Shown piece by piece: positions 12,881 through 54,691 of a stretch of 64,000 nt of DNA. The first letter of the stretch is position 1, and each line of letters starts with the position of its first letter. The DNA lies in assembly GCA_030867875.1 (NCBI GenBank), contig JAOWCC010001589.1:76717537-76781536 (forward strand). Reading direction: 5' to 3'. The DNA is from Actinernus sp. WN-2022 (taxonomy: Eukaryota > Cnidaria > Anthozoa > Actiniaria > Actinernidae). Both the position numbers and the translations under genes were made by a program. The notes below the pieces were generated by a model. It did no database searches. It was not told where the DNA came from and worked only from the letters and a program-made list of their open reading frames with translations.

Positions 12881-13509
12881 TCAGTAAACTTCAAAGTTGA
12901 TGTCATCATAAGGACACGGGCAGCAAGTACGGTTTGCAACATCTTTATAGCTACACGGGATTAAACAGCATGGATCTGACAAGATAGGTCCGGCAGTATG
13001 TACCGGGATATACTGCTTCTTCCCACCGCAGTAGAAACAGTAAAAACGCAGACAGCGAGTCACTTCCAGCCAGTTATCAGCCACGTACTTATGAGGTTCC
13101 TTCTGAATCTTCTCGACCATTCTGGCCAAGGCGCTCAAGCGTGGTTGAGTAAACTCCTCCAACAGGTTCATTCCATCTATCCAATAGTGAATGCAACTCC
13201 CGGTGGTCAGCGCCTGCCGCAGATTTTCCAACAGCTCTAGGAAGATGTCGCCAGGGCCTATCCTCAGCCAGTCATCTGATGGGCGTTGTTCTACTGCTCG
13301 CAACAGGATCGTCTTTAGTGTGTAACTCTTGAGATTTTTGACGGATTCGATCTTGCTATCCAGATGGGCTTTTTTAACTGCTTTCAGAGCCATGAAAGCT
13401 TTTTTGGCGACCTCGGGGATGCAGTTAGCCAGTTCTATTTCCGGTTGGGAAAACGAATAACGCCATTCGAGATGAGGCGCCTGATCGTATGTGGTGAGGG
13501 TTGGTTGAG
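12881..13509 (-). CDS. Mab-21 domain protein, C-terminal exon
   Basis: This exon encodes the C-terminal half of a Mab-21 fold (cGAS-like nucleotidyltransferase family). On the minus strand it opens after the acceptor TTTCGGTTTCCTGCACAG. The translation reaches the family signature WRYSFSQPEIELAN, followed by KKAFMALKAVKKAHL. Next come KSYTLKTILLRAVEQ and the helical C-terminal motif LLENLRQALTTGSCIHYWI, where Mab-21 proteins have the run before the NLFE-like turn (here MNLLEEF). A Cys-rich tail ends at the stop codon 12881-12883. Two bases (CT) at its 5' edge complete a codon started by the single base at the end of exon 25240-26082, giving Thr, so the two exons join in frame. The linker between QWPRKA and WRYSF is shorter than in many Mab-21 proteins, so a small middle exon may exist in the intron. 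Confidence 0.85.
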
Positions 13510-13544
13510 CTGTGCAGGAAACCGAACAAAATCAGTATATATTG

Positions 13545-15200
13545 ATCTCTACTGCTGCTGCTATACTACTAGTATAACTACTACTACTCCTACTACAACT
13601 GTTACTCTATACTACGACAACTACTACTGTTACTCTATGCTAGGACAACTACTACTGTTACTCTATACTACGACAACTACTACTGTTACTCGATACTATG
13701 ACCACTACTACTGTTACTCGATACTATGACAACTACTACTTGTTACTCTATACTACGACAACTACTACTGTTACTCTATACTACTACTACTGTTACTCTA
13801 TACTACGACAACTACTACTGTTACTCTATACTACGACAACTACTACATAAAACTGTTACTCTATATATACTACGACAACAACTACTGATACTCTATACTA
13901 CGACAACTACTACTGTTACTCTATACTATGACAACTAGTACTGTTACTCTATACTACTTCAACTACTATATACTGTTACTCTATACTATGCCAACTACTA
14001 CTGTTACTCTATACTACGACAACTACTACTGTTACTCAATGCTACGACAACTACTACTGTTACTCTATACTACGACAACTACTACTTGTTACTCTATACT
14101 ACGACAACTACTACTGTTACTCTATACTACTACTACTGTTACTCTATACTACGACAACTACTACTGTTACTCTATACTACGACAACTACTACATAAAACT
14201 GTTACTCTATATATACTACGACAACAACTACTGATACTCAAAACTATGACAACTAGTACTGTTACTCTATACTACATCAACTACTATATACTGTTACTCT
14301 ATACTATGCCAACTACTACTGTTACTCTATACTACGACAACTACTACTGTTACTCAATGCTACGACAACTACTACTGTTACTCTATACTACGACAACTAC
14401 TACTTGTTACTCTATACTACGACAACTACTACTGTTACTCTATACTACTACTACTGTTACTCTATACTACGACAACTACTACTGTTACTCTATACTACGA
14501 CAACTACTACATAAAACTGTTACTCTATATATACTACGACAACAACTACTGATACTCTATACTACGACAACTACTACTGTTACTCTATACTACGACCACT
14601 ACTACTGTTACTCGATACTATGACAACTACTACTGTTACTCTATGCTACGACAACTACTACTGTTACTCTATACTACGACAACTACTACTGTTACTCTAT
14701 ACTACTACTACTGTTACTCTATACTACGACAACTACTACTGTTACTCTATACTACGACAAATACTACATAAAACTGTTACTCTATATATACTACGACAAC
14801 AACTACTGATACTCTATACTACGACAACTACTACTGTTACTCTATACTACGACCACTACTACTGTTACTCGATACTATGACAACTACTACTGTTACTCTA
14901 TGCTACGACAACTACTACTGTTACTCTATACTATGACAACTAGTGCTGTTACTCTATACTACTTCAACTACTACTGTTACTCTATACTATGCCAACTACT
15001 ACTGTACATGTTACTCTATACTACGACAACTACTACTGTTACTCTATGCTACGACAACTACTACTGTTACTCTATACTACGACAGCTACTACTGTTACTC
15101 TATACTACGACAACTACTACTGTTATTCTATACTACGACAACTACTACTGATACTCTATACTACGACAACTACTACTTGTTATTCTATACTACAACTACT
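13545..15200 (+). repeat. 28-bp satellite with a higher-order pattern, about 1.65 kb
   Basis: The consensus period is 28 bp (GTTACTCTATACTACGACAA then CTACTACT). Since 28 is not a multiple of 3, the three frames rotate every unit and the long open frames across it are artefacts. A variant block containing CATAAAACTGTTACTCTATA recurs at about 13848, 14190, 14510 and 14768. This shows higher-order units of roughly 257-342 bp produced by block duplication. Confidence 0.9.
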
Positions 15201-23020: not shown

Positions 23021-24434
23021 TGTTAGGAGTGCCGTGGCCACGTTAGGAGTGCCATGGCCATGTTAGGAGTGCCATGGCCATGTTAGGAGCGCCATGGCCA
23101 TGTTAGGAGTACCGTGGCCACATTTAGGAGTTCCGTTAGGAGTGCCGTGGCCACGGTAGGAGTGCCGTGGCCACATTTAGGAGTGTCGCGTGGCCATGTT
23201 AGGAGGAGTGCCGTTAGGAGTGCCATGGCCATGTTAGGAGTGCCATGGCCATGTTAGGAGTACCGTGGCCACATTTAGGAGTTCCGTTAGGAGTGCCGTG
23301 GCCACGGTAGGAGTGCCGTGGCCACATTTAGGAGTGTCGCGTGGCCATGTTAGGAGTGCCGTTAGGAGTGCCATGGCCATGTTAGGAGTGCCATGGCCAT
23401 GTTAGGAGTACCGTGGCCACATTTAGGAGTTCCGTTAGGAGTGCCGTTAGGAGTGCCGTGGCAATGGTTAGGAGTGCCGTGGCCATGTTAGGAGTGGCGT
23501 GGCCACATTTAGGAGTTCAGTTAGGAGTGCCGTGGCCACGTTAGAAGTGCTGTGGCCACATTTAGGAGTGCCGTGGCCATGTTAGGAGTGCCGTCGCCAC
23601 GTTAGTAGTGCCGTGGCCACATTTAGGAGTTCCATTAGGAGTGCCGTGGCCACGTTAGGAGTGCCGTTAGGAGTGCCGTGGCCACGTTAGGAGTGCCATG
23701 GCCACGTTAGGAGTGCCGTGGCCACATTTAGGAGTTCAGTTAGGAGTGCCGTGGCCACGTTAGGAGTGCTGTGGCCACATTTAGGAGTGCCGTGGCCATG
23801 TTAAGAGTACCGTGGCCAAGTTAGGAGTGTCGTGGCCAAGTTAGGAGTGCCGTGGCCACGTTAAGAGTGCCGTGGCCACGTTAGGAGTACCGTAAGTTTG
23901 TGTCCGTAATCAGATGATAACCACGCCCGGGGGGATTAGCCCCAGGCGTGGTAAGATTGCCATTGGTTTCGGCCTTCCAGCCTACTCACGACTCTCACCA
24001 AGAGGAGGTTGCAATCTTAGGAGTGCCGTGGCCATGTTAGGAGTGCCGTGGCCATGTTAGGAGTGCCGTGGCCATGTTAGGAGTGCCGTGGCCATGTTAG
24101 GAGTGCCGTGGCCATGTTAGGAGTGCCGTGGCCATGTTAGGAGTGCCGTGGCCATGTTAGGAGTGCCGTGGCCATGTTAGGAGTGCCGTGGCCATGTTAG
24201 GAGTGCCGTGGCCATGTTAGGAGTGCCGTGGCCATGTTAGGAGTGCCGTGGCCATGTTAGGAGTGCCGTGGCCATGTTAGGAGTGCCGTGGCCATGTTAG
24301 GAGTGCCGTGGCCATGTTAGGAGTGCCGTGGCCATGTTAGGAGTGCCGTGGCCATGTTAGGAGTGCCGTGGCCATGTTAGGAGTGCCGTGGCCATGTTAG
24401 GAGTGCCGTGGCCATGTTAGGAGTGCCGTGGCCA
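23021..24434 (+). repeat. 20-bp minisatellite in two blocks (GTTAGGAGTGCCGTGGCCAT)n
   Basis: Block 1 (23021-23892) is heterogeneous, with units of 20 bp and variants (CATTTAGGAGT, GTTAGGAGTGCC half units, CCACG/CCATG) and duplicated sub-blocks. A unique spacer of about 125 bp (23893-24017) follows. It contains the hairpin CCACGCC..GGCGTGG. Block 2 (24018-24434) is about 21 essentially identical units. Each unit contains the palindrome TGGCCA, and some contain CCATGG. Confidence 0.95.
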
Positions 24435-28409: not shown

Positions 28410-29115
28410 GTAAAGATCCGAACCGATCCTAATAAAGATCCGATCCGATCCTAGTAAAGATCCGATCCGATCCGAGTAAAGATCCGATCCGATCCTAGTA
28501 AACATCCGATCCGATAAGAGTAAAGATCCGATCCGATCCTAGTAAAGTTCCAATCCGATCCGAGTAAAGATCCAATCCGATCCGAGTAAAGATCCAATCC
28601 GATCCTAGTAAAGATCCGATCCGATCCTAGTAAAGATCCGATCCGATCCGATCCTAGTAAAGATCCGAACCGATCCGAGTAAAGATCCGAACCGATCCGA
28701 GTAAAGATCCGATCCGATCCTAGTAAAGATCCGAACCGATCCGAGTAAAGATCCGATCCGAGTAAAGATCCGAACCGATCTGAGTAAAGTTCCGATCCGA
28801 TCCGAGTAAAGTTCCTATCCGATCCTAGTAAAGATCCGAACCGATCCGAGTAAAGATCCTATCCGATCCTAGTAAAGAGCCTAACCGATCCTAGTAAAGA
28901 TCCGAACCGATCCTAGTAAAGTTCCAATCCGATCCGAGTAAAGATCCAATCCGATCCGAGTAAAGATCCGATCGATCCTAGTAAAGATCCGACCGATCCG
29001 AGTAAAGATCCGATCCGAGTAAAGATCCGAACCGATCTGAGTAAAGTTCCGATCCGATCCGAGTAAAGTTCCTATCCGATCCGAGTAAAGATCCTATCCG
29101 ATCCGAGTAAAGATC
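28410..29115 (+). repeat. 22-bp GATC-rich minisatellite
   Basis: About 32 units of AGTAAAGATCCGATCCGATC plus CT or CG. There are 17-bp short units and substitutions (GAACC, TTCC, AATCC). The array is very dense in GATC sites. It is non-coding. Confidence 0.95.
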
Positions 29116-35890: not shown

Positions 35891-36982
35891 TTTTCCCCTA
35901 AACAGAGACGTCAATACACCTTGGAAACTGAAAGCATTTTTACATTATGTTTAATTGTTTTTAAGCTAAGGAAAAAACCCGCATCGAAGTGTAGAGTCAT
36001 TTTTACGATAAAACTAGAAATGTCTGCTAAATGAGGTTTTAAATTAACTGGAGGTTATTTAATTAGTTATGAATTGACTTTTGATCTTCACTGGATGATT
36101 ATTAGTTCCGTCATAAAACAAGATAATGGAGGTCGTGAAACTTTCGTCAGGAAAATGAGAAGCCAAATATCTTGAAAATAGTCAATTTCCACAAAACCGT
36201 TCAGTTTAGGACCTGTTTATAGAGGAAGGGAGGTTGATCCTAGCCCCGGGACGGCTAGCACCAGATCTATCTTAATTGTTTTTGCCGGTATATCGCCACG
36301 AATGCTGCTGGTCCAAGCACGCCGGAAGAATCAACCTCCCTTGATCATGCAAACGGCAGCGTGGCCCTTAACCAAGTAACTCGATCAGCACAACATTACA
36401 GCTTAAAAAAAACTTGTGGTCCCTCGGCAAGACCTAACGATCCATGTTAGGCATAGAGTAAGAAATATATATATGCTAGTAGCGATAAGAAAAAAGCTTT
36501 TTCAATTAACCAAACTGCATGGTTTTCATGTGTAAACTGCCGCCGATCCTAGTTTGATTTCATCCATCCCACACGTGTGCTAAATGTACAAAAAATGATT
36601 AACAAACTGTGCGTAGATCTAGTCTTCAAGGAAAATATTGCATATCCTTTAAATCAAGCGATAAGAGAGGAGACTTTAACTGTTTGAAGCCCAATTAATA
36701 TCCACTAATCGAATATTGATTCCAGACATGTGCAAATCCATGACACAGCCCCTTTAACTTTCAAAAGTTTCGGCGGCTTTTAATAACTTTCAAGTTTCGA
36801 AACTCCTTAATCCTCTTCCAAGTTTCGATGGATTAATTTTCCGGTTTCGAAACTTCACTGATCATCATCATGGTCGTTATTTCAATACGGTAGCTACTCT
36901 CATAAACTAAAATACAAATCTATGGTTTTCAGGTACACCGAATAACATTGTACTTAGAAAGATACGGTACGTTCGTGCCTGT
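35891..36982. other. No recognised gene; one small hairpin
   Basis: AGGGAGGTTGAT at about 36226 and ATCAACCTCCCT at about 36330 form a small inverted repeat of unknown nature. The rest is unassigned. Confidence 0.4.
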
Positions 36983-36984
36983 TA

Positions 36985-37575
36985 GTCCATGAGCTGAGTG
37001 CCCGAAAATGGCAAATTAGTACCACTCGAGGGGGCAAATGCTATCATACATTTTCTGAAAGCTATTGATCTGAAGATCAAGAAAATATATGATAGCCCTG
37101 TCGTATTTGTAGCTTAAGGGTGTCACGTGACCTTAAAGTCAAAATTATGCATAATGAGCTGATATACACCATGAACTCTTTATTTATTCATATCTCTTTT
37201 GAATTTTAATGTAATGATGTTGTTATAGTTGCAAACAGTTGGTTTCTCAATAGGCTTTATGGCATTCACAAAATTTTATTAATATTCTTCATTGGGGTCA
37301 CGTGACAATGACGTCATTTTAAAAAAGAGCTGAAACTTTAACATAAAGCAGAAATAGAATATTATAATTAACCAATAAATACAAATTTCCAATTATAAAC
37401 AGAAAAGCTACATTAAACTAAGTCTTATAACTAAACTTGACCTGTTTTTTCTTTGAATTTGTTATATTATCACGAATTTTACGATATTTATGTAAACCGG
37501 AAGTAGTTTTGGGTACCCTGTGGTAAATCAGAAAATATGGCTATTTCAGAGTTTTTCATCTTTCCAAGCAAATTT
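36985..37575 (+). repeat. Left terminal inverted repeat of copy 1
   Basis: It is inverse to 42495-43082. It contains two CACGTG palindromes (about 37113 and 37301). The outer 40 bp differ more between left and right ends than the inner part does. Confidence 0.85.
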
Positions 37576-37645
37576 CTTCAATGTAAGACCTGCCACAACG
37601 GTGTCCATGCTATTGCAGTCGTTGTATTTGTTTAAGAATTATTCA

Positions 37646-37873
37646 TTAAGTTAAGTCAGGAGTCAATTTATTTCTTTTGGGTGATGAAACTTCACTGTTG
37701 TGATGGACCCTCCTGACATATGTGCTGATACCGGGAATCATCGATGCTATACCATAGGTTGGTATTATTATATCTGCTCTCTGGCTATGGACAGTAGGTA
37801 ACACTAGACCTAATACACGAGTAGCTAGAAACCTACTGGGAAATACATGCATATCAATTATCATATTTAACAT
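37646..37873 (-). CDS. Small ORF of unknown function inside element copy 1
   Basis: A 75-codon minus-strand frame (MLNMIIDMHVFPSRFLATRV..) lies between the left TIR and the main gene. It starts 12 bp after that gene's stop codon. It is perfectly kept in copy 2, but so is everything else. No domain was recognised. It may be a chance ORF. Confidence 0.2.
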   Translation of the reverse strand: MLNMIIDMHVFPSRFLATRVLGLVLPTVHSQRADIIIPTYGIASMIPGISTYVRRVHHNSEVSSPKRNKLTPDLT

Positions 37874-37885
37874 TATATCGTGAAA

Positions 37886-40144
37886 TCACTCTTCATCCTC
37901 ATAATCGTCATCTATGACTTTCAGATTATTACTGTCCTCGTTTGAGCGGTTCTGACAATCCTTAAGTTTGCACATGTCAGTGCACTTCAATCCATTCATT
38001 AGGCACGAACAACCAGGCTGCTTGCATGAGCGCACACATCTGCAGGACAATAGCTGCAATACAGCTTTTGGAGCTCGGTCACCATCCATCCAGTCTAGTG
38101 CAAGACTTTGGCCATCACCAGCGCCATCCAGACACCAGCCTAATCCAACCGGTGATGGAACATCAGGGCATCCGACAAGACTTAGTCGCCATATTCTTGC
38201 CTGGTAGTTGGCGCGTTGACAGTGCTTACGCAGACAGTCAGCACAAGGAGGAAGTTGATTCGAGTCAAGGTCACCTTTCCTGGCACAAAACAGCTTGTAC
38301 CTCAGCTCGTTGACATCTTCAGTGCCAGGGTTGGAACTGTACATCAGACAGGTACATTTCTGTAAATGACAGAAAAGCTCCTCAGAGAGTTCCGATTGCA
38401 CTCCTAGCTGCTGCATTATTTCTTGTGATGACTGGTTGCGCTCGAGATTTTTAATCGCACCAACTTTACCACGTCCGGCAAAAGCGCTAACGGTATCACA
38501 ACCAGTGAAAGCATGCAAACCTGGGAGAGATTTGCAATTTGACTCCCCAAGTGCCTGTGTAACCTTTCCGATGTCGACGTACCTTGTTCGTATTTGTGTA
38601 CCGCATTTCTGATACATAGAACAAGGGATAGTGCTGTTGAAGGCAAGGCAAAGTACAAAGACATCTGTATCCTCTGATGCAATGACGATTGACTTGTAAC
38701 CTGCTCTAGCAGCGTGATCTGCATGGAATAGAAGACGTGTGTATGCTTCCTCCTGTGTCGACTTCAGGTCGTCTGCTTTCTCTACCTTGTCTTCCTCACG
38801 TGTGACAAACAAGACTTTGCCTTGTAGCTTTGCTCTGTATTTGTCTTGCTTCCACTCTGTTAACAGAAATGATATCAAAGCAGTCTTGTTGCTTGGATCA
38901 GCTATGAACTTTCTCTACTGCTGTACTTTGGATCCAGAAGTAATATTTCTGAATTGCGTCCCAGTAACAGTAGTTCTGTTTTGCATTTCTGTGTTCTTTA
39001 TAGAATCCAGCCTGTAAACATGAAAGACGACATCAATCCGCTCACTGTCGGGACATTCATGAAGGACCATGCAGAGAACATCATCGGCTGCAACTTCTGA
39101 AAATGTCTTATGATCACCCTTGAGTCTTTGAACAACACTCATACCATCGATGATGCATGCAGATGGTCCAGGGATTCTTTCAGCTGGAGAAACATTCTTC
39201 TGGAGTTCTTTAGCGAGTGCAGCCTTGTTAGGTTTTCTTAACGAACCGTCTGACGTTGCCAGTGACCATGGCAGTGGTCCAAGAGGATGGGCTAAAACAT
39301 CCCTCATCTTGAGGCTTCTGATCTCAGCTATCACGATCATTTGCCCAAATAAGATGCGATCTGCTTTCAAGATTATGTCTTTACCACTTTCTTTGCGAAC
39401 TTTCATCTTCTTGTCAAGCGCACTGAACGTTTTTAACTTCTGTTTTGTCATCTTATCGTGGAAGTTATGTTCGGGTGGACAGCTTTCAAGTCTCTGGTCG
39501 CTAAATTCTCTGTAGGCTTGTTCTCCGGTATTTCTGGCATGAAGCAAATCTGCCTCAACGTCAGATGGAGCTACCTTCACTGTGGAGAGACAGACAAGGT
39601 CTTGATGTTCACTGAAAAATGGGTCGATCCGATTACTCTCCAACATTTCCAGCAGTGACTTCACATCTGCTTCATCCTTAGCTATTCTCGTACTTTGTAG
39701 ATCTGCATGGTGAAAGTGGGACTTCAAATCCAACATGTCTCTCAGTTGTCTAAGAAATATGCTCCTGTACTCTGCAACCATGTAGTATCTGCTGACTGCT
39801 TCCGGCTTCAGACTGAATCCCTTTGTCCCTCCTGGTGTTTGAGTGTCTTTATTGACAGTTTCTTCACATACCTGATCAACCGGAATTCTTCCGAATGGGT
39901 TTTCTGCACCAATCTGAACCGAAAAACCTCCAGACATAACATAATCGTAAACATCAGGATGTTCGTGGTCGAGGTACGACATCTCCGCGATGTAGGCTGA
40001 CAAGTATCTTGCGTAGTTCAGATTATCATACGCAAAGCACCAGGGTATCATTGCTCTGATACATGACAAATGTAAATTCCAATCTCCCTCTCTGGAACCT
40101 CTCAGAAGCCCAAGCACGATCTCCACCATGTCGATGTACGACAT
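37886..40144 (-). pseudogene. Element copy 1: C-terminal region, core domain plus PIN/XPG-like nuclease and CXC domain
   Basis: Two adjacent minus-strand frames (38915-40144 and 37886-38878) are the same frame separated by one TAG at 38915-38917, in SKVQQ-stop-RKF, where a Trp codon (TGG) is likely original. The first part contains REGDWNLHLSCIRAMIPWCF, then GGFSVQIGAENPFGRIPVDQ and EETVNKDTQTPGGTKGFSL, a conserved block of this mobile gene family. The second has QEEAYTRLLFHADHA, IASEDTDVFVLCLAF and LHAFTGCDTVSAFAGRGKVG. This order (acidic pairs, then a GCD..GxGKxGA segment) resembles the PIN/FEN-XPG nuclease fold with its helix-hairpin-like motif. Residues about 282-311 form a Cys-rich CXC module (SCRCVRSCKQPGCSC) like tesmin/TSO1 DNA-binding domains. 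An acidic tail ends the protein. TAA precedes the first ATG in frame (NGNL-stop-AFW). Confidence 0.7.
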
Positions 40145-40185
40145 CCAGAAGGCTTAAAGGTTCCCATTCTCACAACGAAGGTAAT

Positions 40186-41815
40186 CTAGGTAGACGTCAA
40201 ATATAGCTCTACAAAGCAAAAAAATGAAGGGCCCTCCAACACCTCTTCCAATTCCTTCTTACAAACGTTGTTTCGAAGGCCCTCCAAATCATTAACCACA
40301 TCTTCTACCAGTTGTATCTTGTCTCCTTGGCAAACTTGCAACCACGATTGGAAGCCTTTCCACGCAAGGCGGAGAAGTACTTCGTACATCAGCTTATGAA
40401 ATCGGACAGCTCGATTATATCGATGGCCGAAACAGAACCTTCAGCAATTACTCCAGATTCTATACAAAATAATATCTCTCAATCCAGCATCTTGGAAGCG
40501 CTTTCCAATAATGGAGAGCAATGTGCATATTGTATTGAACACACCCATCCTAGGAACAATGTCCCGAAACTGATCACTCCTCTTCCAGATGACTTCTGCA
40601 GGTTTTGCATAAAGTGCCTGGTCAAAAACAACAAGGATACTCTTTAGGGCTAATGCATCTTTTATCTTGACCGACTGCAGCAGTACCTCATAAACGGTTG
40701 ATAGATTAGTTGCTGGTGCATCAATTGAAGGAAGGTATCCCACGTTATCTTGGGACACAGTCATATCATCACGACTGGAAATATTAAACCCTGTCCAGCC
40801 GCTAACCTTCTGATTTTCGGCTGCATGTAGACGGGTCAACACCCACAGCAGATTCTTCTTCCAAGTATTTTGTAATACCTCTTCAGATGTTACCATAGTT
40901 TCGCGCAGGAGGTCCAACACGGGCGCCAGCATTATATACTGGGAGCAATGACGTAGGCAGCTCTACACTTCTTTTTCTTCCTTTCACGACAACAGGATCG
41001 GGTGGTAGTTGTGAACCAAACACTTTTGCCTGTACAGCAATTCCGTTTACCCTGTGAAAGGTGCCACCACCGGAAAGCGTCTCTGAGTTCTAACCTGTCG
41101 ATATTATCCCAAGCCAATGTTGTGCTGACAAAGGTCTGGATATTTTCTGGAAGTGTAACACCCCCATCTGATGCTCTAGCCATCTTCTCTAAGCACAACG
41201 CTGTGTCAATCTCTTCGATCTGCGAGTAGGAAAGCCCATGGCTGCAGCGATTTATAATTTGTATCAGCTCTACGTTATTGGTTAGAGACTTAATTGCATA
41301 AGGCAGTAAGATGTGCTTTGGGGGTTTCTGCTGCCTACAGCTTACACCATACACAATGTCTTGGCCAAAGAAATTGATGAGACGTTTAACCTTGCAATTA
41401 TTCTATCGTCTTGCTTTTCAATTGCTGTATTTCTAATTCTTTCATCAGCACGTAGGTCGACGCATTTTACTAATGTTTCTGGGGATTGTTTTCCTTTAGG
41501 ATATTTGTCGGTTTTATTGCAAACCATGCAGATTGCATTGTAAACCCGGCTATTATTTGAGCTCGGTGTTTGTCTTGCTGAAGCCCTTGAACTTCTGTCT
41601 GATTCACTTGGAGATTCGCCAGTTTCAGATTGCTTACTTAGTCGATCTAAGGACTTTTTCATGGTAAAAATGCTGCGACACTTACGAGGATATGCAATTC
41701 TTGGGATTTCAGATTCACCTGTAGCAGTTGCGATGTCAAGAAGCGGTTTATGATCTCTAATTTGTGCTGCCTTCACCAATGTTCGCCATGATTCAATGCC
41801 TTTTAGTGTAGACAA
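40186..41815 (-). pseudogene. Element copy 1: N-terminal and middle region, frameshifted
   Basis: Four overlapping minus-strand frames are pieces of one protein. 41342-41815 has a CxxC zinc-binding-like pair (CMVCNKTDKYPKGK) and LRADERIR. The coding extends a little upstream (ALANDLHNQGLSTLKGI) but no start was found. 40932-41354 contains KHILLPYAIKSLTNNVELIQ and TLAWDNIDRLE. A 4-bp insertion (CTCA) then shifts the frame, and the true continuation is GGGTFHRVNGIAVQAK in another frame. 40441-40932 has NVGYLPSIDAPATNLSTVYE, ILVVFDQALYAKP and GVFNTICTLLSIIGKRFQDA. Another shift occurs before ESGVIAEGSV, and again before RYNRAVRFHKLMYEVLLRLA. 40186-40389 ends this part. The Asp of VVFDQ could be a first catalytic Asp of an RNase H-like transposase fold; this is inference. 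Confidence 0.65.
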
Positions 41816-42494
41816 ACCCTGATTGTGAAGGTCGTTTGCCAGTGCAATGTATTATGCATTCTGCCGTGCTTGTATCTGTTCGGAAGCGCTTTGTAATATT
41901 ATTATGCACCTCCTCGCTCCCTTGTTTTCGCTTCTCTGAAATCAATAGACCTATTCTGATTACACATTTTTTACAGGTTCATTCCGAAAAAAAACTGACT
42001 TAATAGACCAGCAAGTTTATCATAGAAATGTCCTAAATCAAAAATTTGTATAAACTATAAACAAAACTGGACTATATTACACACATCTTGCCTATCAAAT
42101 ATCAAAATAATAAGAAATGAAACATGATTAATAGCAATGAGTAAAACATACTAACCTGACAAGGGAGTCATTATCTTGGATACCCACAATGCATTGTGCT
42201 TTCCCACAATTCCATTTTCATTGCTTTAAATAATTATACCAAATTAAATATGGTAAACAAATTAAATAACGCTGCTAAGGCTAACTCACAAATGATATAA
42301 AGAACTGCTTCATATAAACCTTTATGGTAAAACAATTATAAGATATTTAGCACACTTAAAATCACAATACAAATATACTACACGAGATTGCCCACTGACG
42401 CTCTGCAGAATAAATAAAACATAAATTGCCATTTCGATGGCTCTTATATAAAGACTATCATAATATGGAAACCAATTTAACAGATCTTAAATTT

Positions 42495-43082
42495 AAGGAA
42501 TTTGTTTCGAAAGATGAAAAACTCCGAAATATCCATATTTTCTGTTTTACCACAGGGTACCCAAAACTACTTCCGGTTTACATAAATATCGAGTAAACTC
42601 GTGATAATATAACACATTCATAGAAAACAACTGGCCAAGTTTAGTTATAAGACTTAGTTTAATGTAGCGTTACTGTTTACAATTGGAAATTTGTATTTAT
42701 TGGTTAATTATAATATTTTATTTCAGCTTTATCTTAAATTTTCAGCTCTTCTTGAAAATGACGTCATTGTCACGTGACCCCAATGAAGAATATTAATAAA
42801 ATTTTGTGAATGCAATAAAGCCTATTGAGAAACCAACTGTTTGCGACTATAACAACATCATTACATTAAAAGTCAAAAGAGATATGAATAAATAAAGAGT
42901 TGATGGTATATATCAGCTCATTATGCATAAAGTTTCGACTTTAAGGTCACGTGACACCCTTAAGCTACAAATATGACAGGGCTATCATATATTTTCTTGA
43001 TCTGCAGGTCAATAGCTTTCAGAAAATGTATGATAGCATTTGCCCCCTCGAGTGGTACTAAAAAGTGCCTCGGCTCATGGAC
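42495..43082 (-). repeat. Right terminal inverted repeat of copy 1
   Basis: Inverse of 36985-37575. It abuts the left TIR of copy 2 with only TA between them. Confidence 0.85.
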
Positions 43083-43985
43083 TAGTCCATGAGCTGAGTG
43101 CCCGAAAATGGCAAATTAGTACCACTCGAGGGGGCAAATGCTATCATACATTTTCTGAAAGCTATTGATCTGAAGATCAAGAAAATATATGATAGCCCTG
43201 TCGTATTTGTAGCTTAAGGGTGTCACGTGACCTTAAAGTCAAAATTATGCATAATGAGCTGATATACACCATGAACTCTTTATTTATTCATATCTCTTTT
43301 GAATTTTAATGTAATGATGTTGTTATAGTTGCAAACAGTTGGTTTCTCAATAGGCTTTATGGCATTCACAAAATTTTATTAATATTCTTCATTGGGGTCA
43401 CGTGACAATGACGTCATTTTAAAAAAGAGCTGAAACTTTAACATAAAGCAGAAATAGAATATTATAATTAACCAATAAATACAAATTTCCAATTATAAAC
43501 AGTAAAGCTACATTAAACTAAGTCTTATAACTAAACTTGACCTGTTTTTTCTTTGAATTTGTTATATTATCACGAATTTTACGATATTTATGTAAACCGG
43601 AAGTAGTTTTGGGTACCCTGTGGTAAATCAGAAAATATGGCTATTTCAGAGTTTTTCATCTTTCCAAGCAAATTTCTTCAATGTAAGACCTGCCACAACG
43701 GTGTCCATGCTATTGCAGTCGTTGTATTTGTTTAAGAATTATTCATTAAGTTAAGTCAGGAGTCAATTTATTTCTTTTGGGTGATGAAACTTCACTGTTG
43801 TGATGGACCCTCCTGACATATGTGCTGATACCGGGAATCATCGATGCTATACCATAGGTTGGTATTATTATATCTGCTCTCTGGCTATGGACAGTAGGTA
43901 ACACTAGACCTAATACACGAGTAGCTAGAAACCTACTGGGAAATACATGCATATCAATTATCATATTTAACATTATATCGTGAAA

Positions 43986-46244
43986 TCACTCTTCATCCTC
44001 ATAATCGTCATCTATGACTTTCAGATTATTACTGTCCTCGTTTGAGCGGTTCTGACAATCCTTAAGTTTGCACATGTCAGTGCACTTCAATCCATTCATT
44101 AGGCACGAACAACCAGGCTGCTTGCATGAGCGCACACATCTGCAGGACAATAGCTGCAATACAGCTTTTGGAGCTCGGTCACCATCCATCCAGTCTAGTG
44201 CAAGACTTTGGCCATCACCAGCGCCATCCAGACACCAGCCTAATCCAACCGGTGATGGAACATCAGGGCATCCGACAAGACTTAGTCGCCATATTCTTGC
44301 CTGGTAGTTGGCGCGTTGACAGTGCTTACGCAGACAGTCAGCACAAGGAGGAAGTTGATTCGAGTCAAGGTCACCTTTCCTGGCACAAAACAGCTTGTAC
44401 CTCAGCTCGTTGACATCTTCAGTGCCAGGGTTGGAACTGTACATCAGACAGGTACATTTCTGTAAATGACAGAAAAGCTCCTCAGAGAGTTCCGATTGCA
44501 CTCCTAGCTGCTGCATTATTTCTTGTGATGACTGGTTGCGCTCGAGATTTTTAATCGCACCAACTTTACCACGTCCGGCAAAAGCGCTAACGGTATCACA
44601 ACCAGTGAAAGCATGCAAACCTGGGAGAGATTTGCAATTTGACTCCCCAAGTGCCTGTGTAACCTTTCCGATGTCGACGTACCTTGTTCGTATTTGTGTA
44701 CCGCATTTCTGATACATAGAACAAGGGATAGTGCTGTTGAAGGCAAGGCAAAGTACAAAGACATCTGTATCCTCTGATGCAATGACGATTGACTTGTAAC
44801 CTGCTCTAGCAGCGTGATCTGCATGGAATAGAAGACGTGTGTATGCTTCCTCCTGTGTCGACTTCAGGTCGTCTGCTTTCTCTACCTTGTCTTCCTCACG
44901 TGTGACAAACAAGACTTTGCCTTGTAGCTTTGCTCTGTATTTGTCTTGCTTCCACTCTGTTAACAGAAATGATATCAAAGCAGTCTTGTTGCTTGGATCA
45001 GCTATGAACTTTCTCTACTGCTGTACTTTGGATCCAGAAGTAATATTTCTGAATTGCGTCCCAGTAACAGTAGTTCTGTTTTGCATTTCTGTGTTCTTTA
45101 TAGAATCCAGCCTGTAAACATGAAAGACGACATCAATCCGCTCACTGTCGGGACATTCATGAAGGACCATGCAGAGAACATCATCGGCTGCAACTTCTGA
45201 AAATGTCTTATGATCACCCTTGAGTCTTTGAACAACACTCATACCATCGATGATGCATGCAGATGGTCCAGGGATTCTTTCAGCTGGAGAAACATTCTTC
45301 TGGAGTTCTTTAGCGAGTGCAGCCTTGTTAGGTTTTCTTAACGAACCGTCTGACGTTGCCAGTGACCATGGCAGTGGTCCAAGAGGATGGGCTAAAACAT
45401 CCCTCATCTTGAGGCTTCTGATCTCAGCTATCACGATCATTTGCCCAAATAAGATGCGATCTGCTTTCAAGATTATGTCTTTACCACTTTCTTTGCGAAC
45501 TTTCATCTTCTTGTCAAGCGCACTGAACGTTTTTAACTTCTGTTTTGTCATCTTATCGTGGAAGTTATGTTCGGGTGGACAGCTTTCAAGTCTCTGGTCG
45601 CTAAATTCTCTGTAGGCTTGTTCTCCGGTATTTCTGGCATGAAGCAAATCTGCCTCAACGTCAGATGGAGCTACCTTCACTGTGGAGAGACAGACAAGGT
45701 CTTGATGTTCACTGAAAAATGGGTCGATCCGATTACTCTCCAACATTTCCAGCAGTGACTTCACATCTGCTTCATCCTTAGCTATTCTCGTACTTTGTAG
45801 ATCTGCATGGTGAAAGTGGGACTTCAAATCCAACATGTCTCTCAGTTGTCTAAGAAATATGCTCCTGTACTCTGCAACCATGTAGTATCTGCTGACTGCT
45901 TCCGGCTTCAGACTGAATCCCTTTGTCCCTCCTGGTGTTTGAGTGTCTTTATTGACAGTTTCTTCACATACCTGATCAACCGGAATTCTTCCGAATGGGT
46001 TTTCTGCACCAATCTGAACCGAAAAACCTCCAGACATAACATAATCGTAAACATCAGGATGTTCGTGGTCGAGGTACGACATCTCCGCGATGTAGGCTGA
46101 CAAGTATCTTGCGTAGTTCAGATTATCATACGCAAAGCACCAGGGTATCATTGCTCTGATACATGACAAATGTAAATTCCAATCTCCCTCTCTGGAACCT
46201 CTCAGAAGCCCAAGCACGATCTCCACCATGTCGATGTACGACAT
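43986..46244 (-). pseudogene. Element copy 2: C-terminal region (core, PIN/XPG-like, CXC)
   Basis: Same content, same internal TAG and same upstream TAA as 37886-40144. See that entry for domain detail. No difference from copy 1 was found in the translated frames. Confidence 0.7.
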
Positions 46245-46285
46245 CCAGAAGGCTTAAAGGTTCCCATTCTCACAACGAAGGTAAT

Positions 46286-47915
46286 CTAGGTAGACGTCAA
46301 ATATAGCTCTACAAAGCAAAAAAATGAAGGGCCCTCCAACACCTCTTCCAATTCCTTCTTACAAACGTTGTTTCGAAGGCCCTCCAAATCATTAACCACA
46401 TCTTCTACCAGTTGTATCTTGTCTCCTTGGCAAACTTGCAACCACGATTGGAAGCCTTTCCACGCAAGGCGGAGAAGTACTTCGTACATCAGCTTATGAA
46501 ATCGGACAGCTCGATTATATCGATGGCCGAAACAGAACCTTCAGCAATTACTCCAGATTCTATACAAAATAATATCTCTCAATCCAGCATCTTGGAAGCG
46601 CTTTCCAATAATGGAGAGCAATGTGCATATTGTATTGAACACACCCATCCTAGGAACAATGTCCCGAAACTGATCACTCCTCTTCCAGATGACTTCTGCA
46701 GGTTTTGCATAAAGTGCCTGGTCAAAAACAACAAGGATACTCTTTAGGGCTAATGCATCTTTTATCTTGACCGACTGCAGCAGTACCTCATAAACGGTTG
46801 ATAGATTAGTTGCTGGTGCATCAATTGAAGGAAGGTATCCCACGTTATCTTGGGACACAGTCATATCATCACGACTGGAAATATTAAACCCTGTCCAGCC
46901 GCTAACCTTCTGATTTTCGGCTGCATGTAGACGGGTCAACACCCACAGCAGATTCTTCTTCCAAGTATTTTGTAATACCTCTTCAGATGTTACCATAGTT
47001 TCGCGCAGGAGGTCCAACACGGGCGCCAGCATTATATACTGGGAGCAATGACGTAGGCAGCTCTACACTTCTTTTTCTTCCTTTCACGACAACAGGATCG
47101 GGTGGTAGTTGTGAACCAAACACTTTTGCCTGTACAGCAATTCCGTTTACCCTGTGAAAGGTGCCACCACCGGAAAGCGTCTCTGAGTTCTAACCTGTCG
47201 ATATTATCCCAAGCCAATGTTGTGCTGACAAAGGTCTGGATATTTTCTGGAAGTGTAACACCCCCATCTGATGCTCTAGCCATCTTCTCTAAGCACAACG
47301 CTGTGTCAATCTCTTCGATCTGCGAGTAGGAAAGCCCATGGCTGCAGCGATTTATAATTTGTATCAGCTCTACGTTATTGGTTAGAGACTTAATTGCATA
47401 AGGCAGTAAGATGTGCTTTGGGGGTTTCTGCTGCCTACAGCTTACACCATACACAATGTCTTGGCCAAAGAAATTGATGAGACGTTTAACCTTGCAATTA
47501 TTCTATCGTCTTGCTTTTCAATTGCTGTATTTCTAATTCTTTCATCAGCACGTAGGTCGACGCATTTTACTAATGTTTCTGGGGATTGTTTTCCTTTAGG
47601 ATATTTGTCGGTTTTATTGCAAAACATGCAGATTGCATTGTAAACCCGGCTATTATTTGAGCTCGGTGTTTGTCTTGCTGAAGCCCTTGAACTTCTGTCT
47701 GATTCACTTGGAGATTCGCCAGTTTCAGATTGCTTACTTAGTCGATCTAAGGACTTTTTCATGGTAAAAATGCTGCGACACTTACGAGGATATGCAATTC
47801 TTGGGATTTCAGATTCACCTGTAGCAGTTGCGATGTCAAGAAGCGGTTTATGATCTCTAATTTGTGCTGCCTTCACCAATGTTCGCCATGATTCAATGCC
47901 TTTTAGTGTAGACAA
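46286..47915 (-). pseudogene. Element copy 2: N-terminal and middle region, frameshifted
   Basis: Carries the same 4-bp insertion and the same later frameshifts as 40186-41815. The one amino-acid difference seen is CMFCNKTDK in place of CMVCNKTDK, next to the putative zinc-binding Cys pair. Confidence 0.65.
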
Positions 47916-49184
47916 ACCCTGATTGTGAAGGTCGTTTGCCAGTGCAATGTATTATGCATTCTGCCGTGCTTGTATCTGTTCGGAAGCGCTTTGTAATATT
48001 ATTATGCACCTCCTCGCTCCCTTGTTTTCGCTTCTCTGAAATCAATAGACCTATTCTGATTACACATTTTTTACAGGTTCATTCCGAAAAAAAACTGACT
48101 TAATAGACCAGCAAGTTTATCATAGAAATGTCCTAAATCAAAAATTTGTATAAACTATAAACAAAACTGGACTATATTACACACATCTTGCCTATCAAAT
48201 ATCAAAATAATAAGAAATGAAACATGATTAATAGCAATGAGTAAAACATACTAACCTGACAAGGGAGTCATTATCTTGGATACCCACAATGCATTGTGCT
48301 TTCCCACAATTCCATTTTCATTGCTTTAAATAATTATACCAAATTAAATATGGTAAACAAATTAAATAACGCTGCTAAGGCTAACTCACAAATGATATAA
48401 AGAACTGCTTCATATAAACCTTTATGGTAAAACAATTATAAGATATTTAGCACACTTAAAATCACAATACAAATATACTACACGAGATTGCCCACTGACG
48501 CTCTGCAGAATAAATAAAACATAAATTGCCATTTCGATGGCTCTTATATAAAGACTATCATAATATGGAAACCAATTTAACAGATCTTAAATTTAAGGAA
48601 TTTGTTTCGAAAGATGAAAAACTCCGAAATATCCATATTTTCTGTTTTACCACAGGGTACCCAAAACTACTTCCGGTTTACATAAATATCGAGTAAACTC
48701 GTGATAATATAACACATTCATAGAAAACAACTGGCCAAGTTTAGTTATAAGACTTAGTTTAATGTAGCGTTACTGTTTACAATTGGAAATTTGTATTTAT
48801 TGGTTAATTATAATATTTTATTTCAGCTTTATCTTAAATTTTCAGCTCTTCTTGAAAATGACGTCATTGTCACGTGACCCCAATGAAGAATATTAATAAA
48901 ATTTTGTGAATGCAATAAAGCCTATTGAGAAACCAACTGTTTGCGACTATAACAACATCATTACATTAAAAGTCAAAAGAGATATGAATAAATAAAGAGT
49001 TGATGGTATATATCAGCTCATTATGCATAAAGTTTCGACTTTAAGGTCACGTGACACCCTTAAGCTACAAATATGACAGGGCTATCATATATTTTCTTGA
49101 TCTGCAGGTCAATAGCTTTCAGAAAATGTATGATAGCATTTGCCCCCTCGAGTGGTACTAAAAAGTGCCTCGGCTCATGGACTA

Positions 49185-50395
49185 TGTATATAGTTATATA
49201 ATTATAGTTACTTACATATATACATAGATAGATAAAACAATAAGTATTATAAATAGACTTCAAGTAAGAGATAAATACCTCGAACCTCGGCCTTAACTCA
49301 TATAAGTCCTTCGGGCCGTAGTGAAATACATCGAACCTCGATCGGTATTAAAGTGCCTATAAGCTCCGGCCATTTTTTCATCATTAAAAGCGATTCTCCA
49401 TCAAGTAAATAGTTGAACGATAAAATATGTCTTGATTTGGGTGATGCGTCTATGAGTTATAGAGGTTTCTATTTCCAATATGGTAATGAGTACACTAGTC
49501 ACAGGAGGCCTCATATTATACAAAAACGTGCCGACAGAGATGCATATCTTTTTCTTGTTATATTTGAGTCTTATATAAGTGAGTTTACCAAATATTTTGT
49601 ATAAATCAGAAATAGTTTTGTTGACCTCCTAGGCCTGTGATCATCACATCATTAGCATATATACCCATATAACTCATAGACGCAACAACACTCAAATCAA
49701 GAAATATTTTACTTTTCACATATTTACTTGGTGTAGAATCGATTTTAGTGATTAACATTTTGGACTTATATAGGCACCCTTTTGCAATTTTCATAGCTTA
49801 TGAACCTCCGAAACGTTTTGAGTACTTCTGTGAAGAAAGTTTTAGTTTAAAGTGAATAATTTATGTTCTACGCTTGTTTGAAATCGTGTAAATGTGACCT
49901 TTCCTGACCCATGACCGCGTAAGTAAAAGCCTGGGTCGAAACCTGGGTAGACGTCATCTTGACGTCATATAATTAATTCGGCTTTGCAATCATTTGAAAA
50001 AATACTTAAGATGTTGACTAAAATGGCTTTTTTCTTTACTAACAACTCAAAAACTGTGTATATTTTCTATGCATCAATGTTGTTGTGATAAAAAGGCGCC
50101 ATGGAAAATAATGCATTAATGAGATGACGTCTACCCAGGTTTCGACCCAGGCCTTTACTTACGCGGTCATGGGTCAGGAAAGGTCACATTTACACGATTT
50201 CAAACAAGCGTAGAACATAAAGTATTCACTTTAAACCAAAACTTTCTTCACAGAAGCACTCAAAACTTTTCGGAGATTCATAAGCTATCAAAATCGCAAA
50301 AGGGTTATATGCACTTTAAGTCATATACTGACATCCCCAGTCGGGCCGTAGGCTTAATACCGAGGTTAATTCGAGGTTTATATCGGACTTATTTC
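49185..50395. mobile_element. Compound foldback element with two adjacent hairpins
   Basis: Hairpin 1 (49355-49775): AAAAGCGATTCTCC, TCAAGTAAATA and GATGCGTCTATGAGTTATA pair with inverted versions at 49600-49775. Hairpin 2 (49772-50310): arms of about 185 bp at roughly 95% identity, including TGACCTTTCCTGACCCATGA and GCGTAAGTAAAAGCCTGGGT, flank a loop at 49959-50121. Outer segments near 49268-49350 and 50330-50395 (AACCTCG, CGGGCCGTAG) are also inverse to each other. This suggests an overall terminal inverted structure. No ORF matches a known family. Confidence 0.75.
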
Positions 50396-51840: not shown

Positions 51841-52746
51841 ACTAGGAGCGTCCACCCCACACACTAGGCCAATGTCACAGCGTCCATCCCACACACTAGG
51901 CCAATGTCACAGCGTCCACCCCACACACTAGGCCAATGTCACAGCGTCCATCCCACACACTAGGCCAATGTCACAGCGTCCATCCCACACACTAGGCAAA
52001 TGTCACAGCGTCCACCCCACACACTAGGCCAATGTCACAGCGTCCATCCCACACACTAGGCCAATGTCACAGCGTCCATCCCACACACTAGGCCAATGTC
52101 ACAGCGTCCATCCCACACACTAGGCCAATGTCACAGCGTCCATCCCACACACTAGGCCAATGTCACAGCGTCCATCCCACACACTAGGCCAATGTCGCAG
52201 CGTCCACCCCACACACTAGGCCAATGTCGCAGCGTCCATCCCACACACTAGGCAAATGTCACAGCGTCCACCCCACACACTAGGCCAATGTCACAGCGTT
52301 TTCACAAGTTAGGTTATTTTTGGAATGGTTCAAGTTCAAGTTTATTAACAAGTATCTATAAATACATATTACTCAACACACCCGCAGATAGCTTAGCTAA
52401 TCGAGGCGCGGGTAGTGCTATAATAGTTCTTATTTACATGGAAGATATTTTGTGATAACTATACAAATTTTACAATAATTAAACAAATTTACAATAACTA
52501 TGAATAAATAAGTAAAAATAAATAAATAAATAGGAAGATTTGTTGTTGTTGTTGTTATTGTTGAATTGCAATTATTCCTAAGGGGATCAAATCAAATCAA
52601 AAGCGTAGCATCCATATTGTTTAGTATAACAAAAGTAGCCAATGAAGCACTTTTGTTTCGCCGCGGTGCAATCTACCAATTGGCGGGGAAAATAATCTAA
52701 AAATAGCCCAACTTGTAAAAACGCTGTGACAATGGACGCTCCTAGT
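51841..52746. mobile_element. MITE-like element with a minisatellite expanded inside its left TIR
   Basis: The right end, read inverted, is ACTAGGAGCGTCCATTGTCA, then CAGCGTTTTTACAAGTTGGG. The left end begins ACTAGGAGCGTCCA and ends TGTCACAGCGTTTTCACAAG, so both halves of the TIR are present. They are pushed about 450 bp apart by a 32-bp tandem array. No transposase is present. Confidence 0.8.
51848..52298 (+). repeat. 32-bp minisatellite, 14 copies
   Basis: The unit is GCGTCCATCCCACACACTAG then GCCAATGTCACA. The variants are CACCCC/CATCCC, GGCAAA/GGCCAA and GTCGCA/GTCACA. Units are very homogeneous. Confidence 0.95.
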
Positions 52747-53617: not shown

Positions 53618-54691
53618 CAGTATGGACATATCTAGTTATGTGTCCTATCCTAACTACATAAGTCAGGATAGGTCCACAAACTTTAACTACAGTACCCGGA
53701 ATTCACTTGTCTGTCTTAGAATTAGCCCTTGTATTCCGTACACGAACTCTGTCGTACCTTACAAATGGTCTATCTCTCTTGCATTTCATGTCCTTGTACA
53801 TTTTCTGTTTCTCTTGCTTACTCTCTACAACTTGTGCAAGATCAGGTTTTATCAAACTCAACCTATTTCTTAGACGACGTTTCACCATCGGCTCTGCTGG
53901 TGTTACGCCTGTTGTACTGTGAGGAGTCGTACGATACCCCTTCCTCGATTTCCTCATCCATCTTTGGCCACCATACACACGTACGAGCGATCGCTTTCAT
54001 GCCACATATACCTGGATGTTCCCAGTGTAATTCCTCCAACATTTTCCCTCTCAAGACTGGTGGAATAATTACTCTGGAACCCCAAAGCACACAATCCTGT
54101 TCGCAAGACAACTCATGCCTTCGATTGTGATATGGTTTGAGATCATCACATCTCTCTGGCCAGCCTGACATCACAAAGTGAAGTACTTTACTAAGCACTG
54201 GATCGACTCGAGTTGCCTTTCCAATGTTCTTTGCTGTAATTGGGAAATCATCATCATTATAAATTGCACCCTCGCTACCTACAGTAGAGTCCTCGTGTGG
54301 TAACCTAGAGAGCGCATCGCATATTGGCATGATCTTCAGATCTCCTGTATTCGATCTCATAATCATACGCTGAAAGCACTAAGGCCCATCTCTGCATCCG
54401 AGCCGCTGCAAGTGTAGGAATTGCGGACTTTGGACCTAAAATTGCCAACAACGTAAACTTTCGACCATATAAGAACTGGTGGAATTTGTTTTACTCCAAA
54501 CACAATCGATAACGCTTCACGCTCGATTTGCGCATAGTTCTTTTCACTTGAACTTAGTGTCCGAGATGCATAGGCTATTGGCCTTTCTTAACCGTCATCC
54601 ATTACATGACTGATTACTGCCCCAAGTCCATAACTGGACGCATCGCAAGCTAGTCTTATTTCGCGATTCACATCGTAATGCACTAATAATG

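Follow-up and report, generated by a model that had tools for sequence, protein, structure and literature searches.

A head-to-tail pair of transposon copies

The window, by which we mean the whole 64,000-nt stretch of contig JAOWCC010001589.1 of Actinernus sp. WN-2022 analyzed here (positions 76,717,537 to 76,781,536), contains two copies of a transposon with long terminal inverted repeats (TIRs). The copies lie in the same orientation, head to tail, with a period of 6,100 bp and mismatches at only two positions (37403, A/T; 41524, C/A), so that the tandem pair proposed in an earlier note, made from the sequence alone, is real. Each copy measures 6,102 bp by its corrected ends, one TA being common to both, rather than the 6,098 bp given there, and the TIRs, put at about 590 bp, align in copy 1 over about 580 bp, with 93% identity across positions 32–608 of the left TIR. 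TA is present at all three array boundaries. The outline of the gene inside (a core, a PIN/XPG-like part and a CXC module) had been read correctly; both copies carry a broken version of the gene. The features of the array, in window coordinates, are as follows.

36980–36982: TGT, the left 3-bp target duplication, flanking the array as a whole
36983–49184: whole array, with the TGT duplication on both outer sides
36983–43084: copy 1, 6,102 bp, termini TAGTCCATGAG...CTCATGGACTA, gene on the minus strand; ends fixed by the empty sites of another copy, L019
37016–37592, plus strand: alignable part of the left TIR of copy 1, whose outer tip starts at 36983
37934–41815, minus strand: broken transposase gene of copy 1, matching residues 15–156 and 375–1536 of the protein P0001 (tblastn)
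37955–38047, minus strand: CXC module of copy 1; its eight cysteines are kept among relatives, and Pfam TCR matches it weakly, below the cut-off
38480–39157, minus strand: predicted FEN1/EXO1/XPG-type nuclease part of copy 1, with motifs CIIDGMS, QEEAYTR, SEDTD and TGCD
39845–41123, minus strand: predicted DDE (Asp-Asp-Glu) core of copy 1, from motif positions, predicted fold and conservation
39845–39889, minus strand: motif VDQVCEE with the Glu of the core
40603–40632, minus strand: motif VVFDQ with the second Asp
41088–41123, minus strand: motif AWDNID with the first Asp
42481–43061, minus strand: alignable part of the right TIR of copy 1, 93% identical to the left TIR, whose outer tip reaches 43084
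43083–43084: TA common to both copies at the head-to-tail junction, without a 3-bp duplication
43083–49184, minus strand: copy 2, 6,102 bp, with the anatomy of copy 1 offset by 6,100 bp
49185–49187: TGT, the right 3-bp target duplication, flanking the array as a whole

The target duplication is 3 bp long and TA belongs to the element

At 20 loci fetched from the assembly, TA adjoins the GTCC...GGAC termini at all of the ends recovered (22/22 left and 18/18 right). Outside this TA, a 3-bp direct repeat was found at 18 of 21 insertion sites, compared with 17 of 420 mispaired flanks; by class, it was present in 13/15 single copies, in both arrays when these were taken as units and in 3/4 intact relatives. 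This count omits three of the fetched loci (L009, L010 and L018), whose right end lies outside the fetched stretch, and enters L023/L024 once, as an array. The sites without the repeat are L016 (2 bp), L025 and C1312_144309259, where the left end reads TTGTCC. Repeats of 4, 5, 6, 7 or 8 bp occurred at none of the 21 sites, and the sequence of the 3-bp repeat is variable.

The copy at L019 is inserted within the reverse transcriptase gene (Pfam RVT_1) of a long interspersed nuclear element (LINE). When the copy is removed together with one TAT, the LINE frame is continuous and its Y-to-W spacing equals that of the LINE at L012; the frame is shifted if TA is taken as the duplication, and longer without TA. 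The predicted 200-bp empty site matched at least 12 LINE copies at 98% identity over exactly 200 bp, with further LINE matches at lower identity among the best 40 of 226 candidates scored, and the paralogous empty sites fetched carry a single TAT in 6/6 cases. Because of the repeats at 18 of 21 sites, the LINE frame and the single-TAT empty sites, we conclude that the target duplication is 3 bp and that TA constitutes the outermost bases of the TIR, which starts TAGTCC. The copies had been described as having nothing but TA between and beside them; this TA is instead part of the element, and the array is bounded by the TGT duplication. The earlier note had itself proposed empty sites as a check and a duplication other than TA as the outcome that would count against it, and the L019 sites show 3 bp.

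Copies in the genome are broken but nearly identical

We searched the 1.39-Gb assembly for further copies. The left TIR gave at least 44 matches (among the best 40 of 197 candidates scored), and the left end, allowing one mismatch, was found at 49 places, 40 of them perfect; since a reversed control pattern was found at none, the arrangement is not due to chance. In copy 1, frame changes and three in-frame stops fall within the tblastn matches to P0001, and in-frame stops interrupt the matched gene in 20/20 units examined. L015, L016 and L017 (6,163, 6,164 and 6,163 bp), all with broken genes, are 100.0% identical after rounding and lie on three separate contigs with different flanks, and L012–L014 share 99.7–99.8% identity. 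As the genes are broken in all 20 units and yet nearly identical copies lie at different places, the simplest reading is that the copies of this family were mobilized in trans.

Intact relatives are present in the same genome. A related protein, P0002, gave at least 36 matches (among the best 29 of 5,642 candidates scored), and at least seven of its relatives are near full length with an open frame and no stops, one of them at G000:C888:91561394-91566121. Four of these were fetched with their flanks: GTCC..GAGCC-type ends were found in 4/4, and TA on both sides together with a 3-bp repeat in 3/4. In these four, blastn returned only inner repeats or partial tips of the TIRs, and the ends were located by motif search.

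The encoded protein combines a predicted DDE core with a predicted nuclease

Full-length relatives encode one protein of about 1,550 amino acids, consisting of the core, the nuclease part and the eight-cysteine tail. The core, left unplaced in the earlier note, now has a predicted DDE transposase fold, with which the invariant acidic residues agree. Its closest structures are the transposases of IS256-family ISCth4, hAT Hermes and RAG1/Transib, a resemblance in the DDE fold only; hAT and RAG1 also have a helical insertion ahead of the last acidic residue. A Foldseek comparison of the core with the PDB and with viral models gave no match at E ≤ 0.001. The nuclease part is predicted to adopt a FEN1/EXO1/XPG-type fold; its acidic position in the motif EEAD is kept in 79/80 relatives and is non-acidic in copy 1. 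A sequence search of the PDB with the nuclease/CXC piece returned 0 matches, and a Pfam scan of five pieces of the window gave no family above the cut-off, DUF6589 included.

When ten relatives were compared with DUF6589 (PF20231; cut-off, 27 bits), one passed (P0131, 30.4 bits), four scored just below the cut-off at about 24 bits and five had no match. The core touches DUF6589, a family without stated function, in P0131, P0086, P0100, P0171 and P0221, and DUF6589 may be a transposase family. No paper joining CXC, PIN and transposon was found in the literature searched.

The family probably belongs to the AcademX type

Academ transposons carry XPG and Cys8 modules. As described in an excerpt of PMC10045372, AcademX duplications are 3 or 4 bp long and those of AcademH 9 or 10 bp, a difference seemingly tied to the presence of a nuclease versus a helicase. 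The window element resembles AcademX, as portrayed there, in its 3-bp duplication and its encoded predicted nuclease, and differs from AcademH, by its name also of the Academ superfamily, in the 3 bp seen at the L019 empty sites and in the lack of a match to helicase families in the six relatives scanned. Because published work characterizes AcademX by a nuclease together with a 3-bp duplication, membership in Academ is probable, matched on these two traits to the published description rather than to reference sequences. We therefore regard the family as probably a non-autonomous, recently mobilized transposon of the AcademX type. The suggestion that the element is Academ-like is thereby strengthened, and the objection raised along with it, that the target was TA rather than 3–4 bp, falls, TA lying within the TIR.

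Other superfamilies fit less well. An 8-bp duplication, as made by hAT elements, was seen at 0/21 sites. PIF/Harbinger elements duplicate 3 bp of the form TWA; TAA or TTA accounts for just 2 of the 18 3-bp repeats found here.

The relatives could instead constitute a separate, unnamed DDE superfamily, with a core touching DUF6589, that merely shares the nuclease and the 3-bp duplication with AcademX. No named transposon family was matched, half of the ten relatives lack any DUF6589 match, and the literature searched contains no mention of DUF6589. Moreover, four relatives with about 50–60% identity to P0002 have TAGTCC-type ends in common, which makes the group both deep and coherent. Against this, both of the AcademX traits open to comparison, a duplication of 3–4 bp and a nuclease, are present, and we consider a separate superfamily unlikely, albeit worth keeping in view. 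The empty-site outcome weakens, but does not remove, the standing of the element as the best candidate for a mobile system not yet described.

Exact arrays were probably formed by fusion of ends

The palindrome at the junction of the window copies, allowing one mismatch, occurs at four places in the genome: one in the window and three in a second exact array, G000:C1312:17385813-17407452 (L023, L024 and L029), which consists of four head-to-tail units. Units a and d, on the outside, are full length and identical across 6,176 bp; between them, units b and c form another identical pair with a common internal deletion, b being equal to a minus about 1.5 kb inside. Each junction has one shared TA. 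A single 3-bp repeat flanks each exact array (TGT in the window, GTT at C1312), the outer ends being undisturbed, and no 3-bp repeat is present at any of the 4 exact inner junctions. Since insertion beside an existing copy would leave an inner 3-bp repeat, the exact arrays are not products of successive insertions: the ends are directly fused, with a 2-nt TA overlap. The literature searched contained no description of exact head-to-tail arrays of this sort.

Ordinary tandem duplication, or an assembly artefact, might also yield such arrays. Tandem duplication does occur in this family: at G000:C685:6279400-6304400 (L048–L051), the left end of a related copy recurs four times, at spacings of 8,676, 7,783 and 7,783 bp, each time with an outside flank that is identical over at least 498 bp, indicating a segmental duplication that includes the flanks; the C1312 array, too, contains identical units. 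However, the C685 unit includes this flank, whereas the unit of the exact arrays coincides base for base with the element. In addition, the two copies in the window have two mismatches, and the C1312 array combines full-length with internally deleted units. This origin is thus improbable. Still less credible is that a copy inserted at the border of an existing one; this would fit the picture if TA were the duplication but would require exact loss of the 3-bp repeat every time. A TA target duplication of the Tc1/mariner kind, despite the TA at 40/40 ends of the fetched loci, is ruled out, with next to no probability left, by the outer 3-bp repeats, the LINE frame and the single-TAT empty sites of L019.

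Other features of the window

To the right of the array, window positions 49881–50200 hold inverted arms of 79 nt that are 99% complementary and spaced by 162 nt, possibly a small TIR element, truncated at the limit of the region searched. A frame at 12884–13531 (minus strand) encodes a Mab-21 C-terminal domain (E = 2.8e-18), and one at 53866–54378 (minus strand) encodes an integrase zinc-binding domain (Integrase_H2C2) and is a retroelement remnant. Tandem-repeat arrays with periods of 20–32 bp and 318 bp lie at 13592–15200, 23021–24434, 28410–29115 and 51847–52299.

Discussion

The window element most likely belongs to a known kind of transposon, and its exact arrays are the most interesting part. 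In the mechanism that we propose, an intact relative would supply the transposase in trans; the DDE core would cut the ends and paste the element with a 3-bp stagger, while the nuclease might act in excision, strand transfer or gap repair by trimming flaps or 5′ ends. An array would form when the right end of one copy fuses with another copy's left end over a 2-nt TA overlap, the partners being either sister copies or an excised circle or dimer, and the overlap stemming from a self-complementary TA overhang or from 2-bp microhomology. Under an end-joining model, 2-nt TA overhangs and junctions reading GGACTAGTCC would be expected, and the resulting array would keep a single outer target duplication and none within. 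A combined proposal, in which the DDE-plus-FEN-nuclease proteins form an unrecognized animal-wide transposon superfamily and the arrays arise from ligation of TA-overhang ends into circles or dimers that act as one larger transposon, seems doubtful to us.

Related arrangements exist elsewhere. The bacterial elements IS30, IS21 and IS2 form head-to-tail dimers with abutted ends and a few bp between them; the ends abut in the window array as well, but here they overlap by 2 bp. In maize, alternative transposition of Ac/fAc, as far as the excerpted account goes (PMC4270019), uses the ends of sister copies together and generates tandem direct duplications, a precedent for the joint use of sister-copy ends. 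Those duplications, however, take in flanking DNA as well as standard 8-bp duplications, whereas here the elements alone are repeated.

Correcting a boundary error of 2 bp changes the classification of the element, and the copies in the window look like members of AcademX, a known but little-studied type of transposon that carries its own nuclease. For many animal proteins, most of which have no Pfam domain or are named just "CXC domain-containing", the analysis also supplies a structural model, assigning them as predicted DDE transposases fused to a flap-type nuclease. Finally, the fused ends hint at how the element is cut: the exact arrays make a testable prediction about end cutting, and they suggest how a cut-and-paste transposon might turn into a tandem array.
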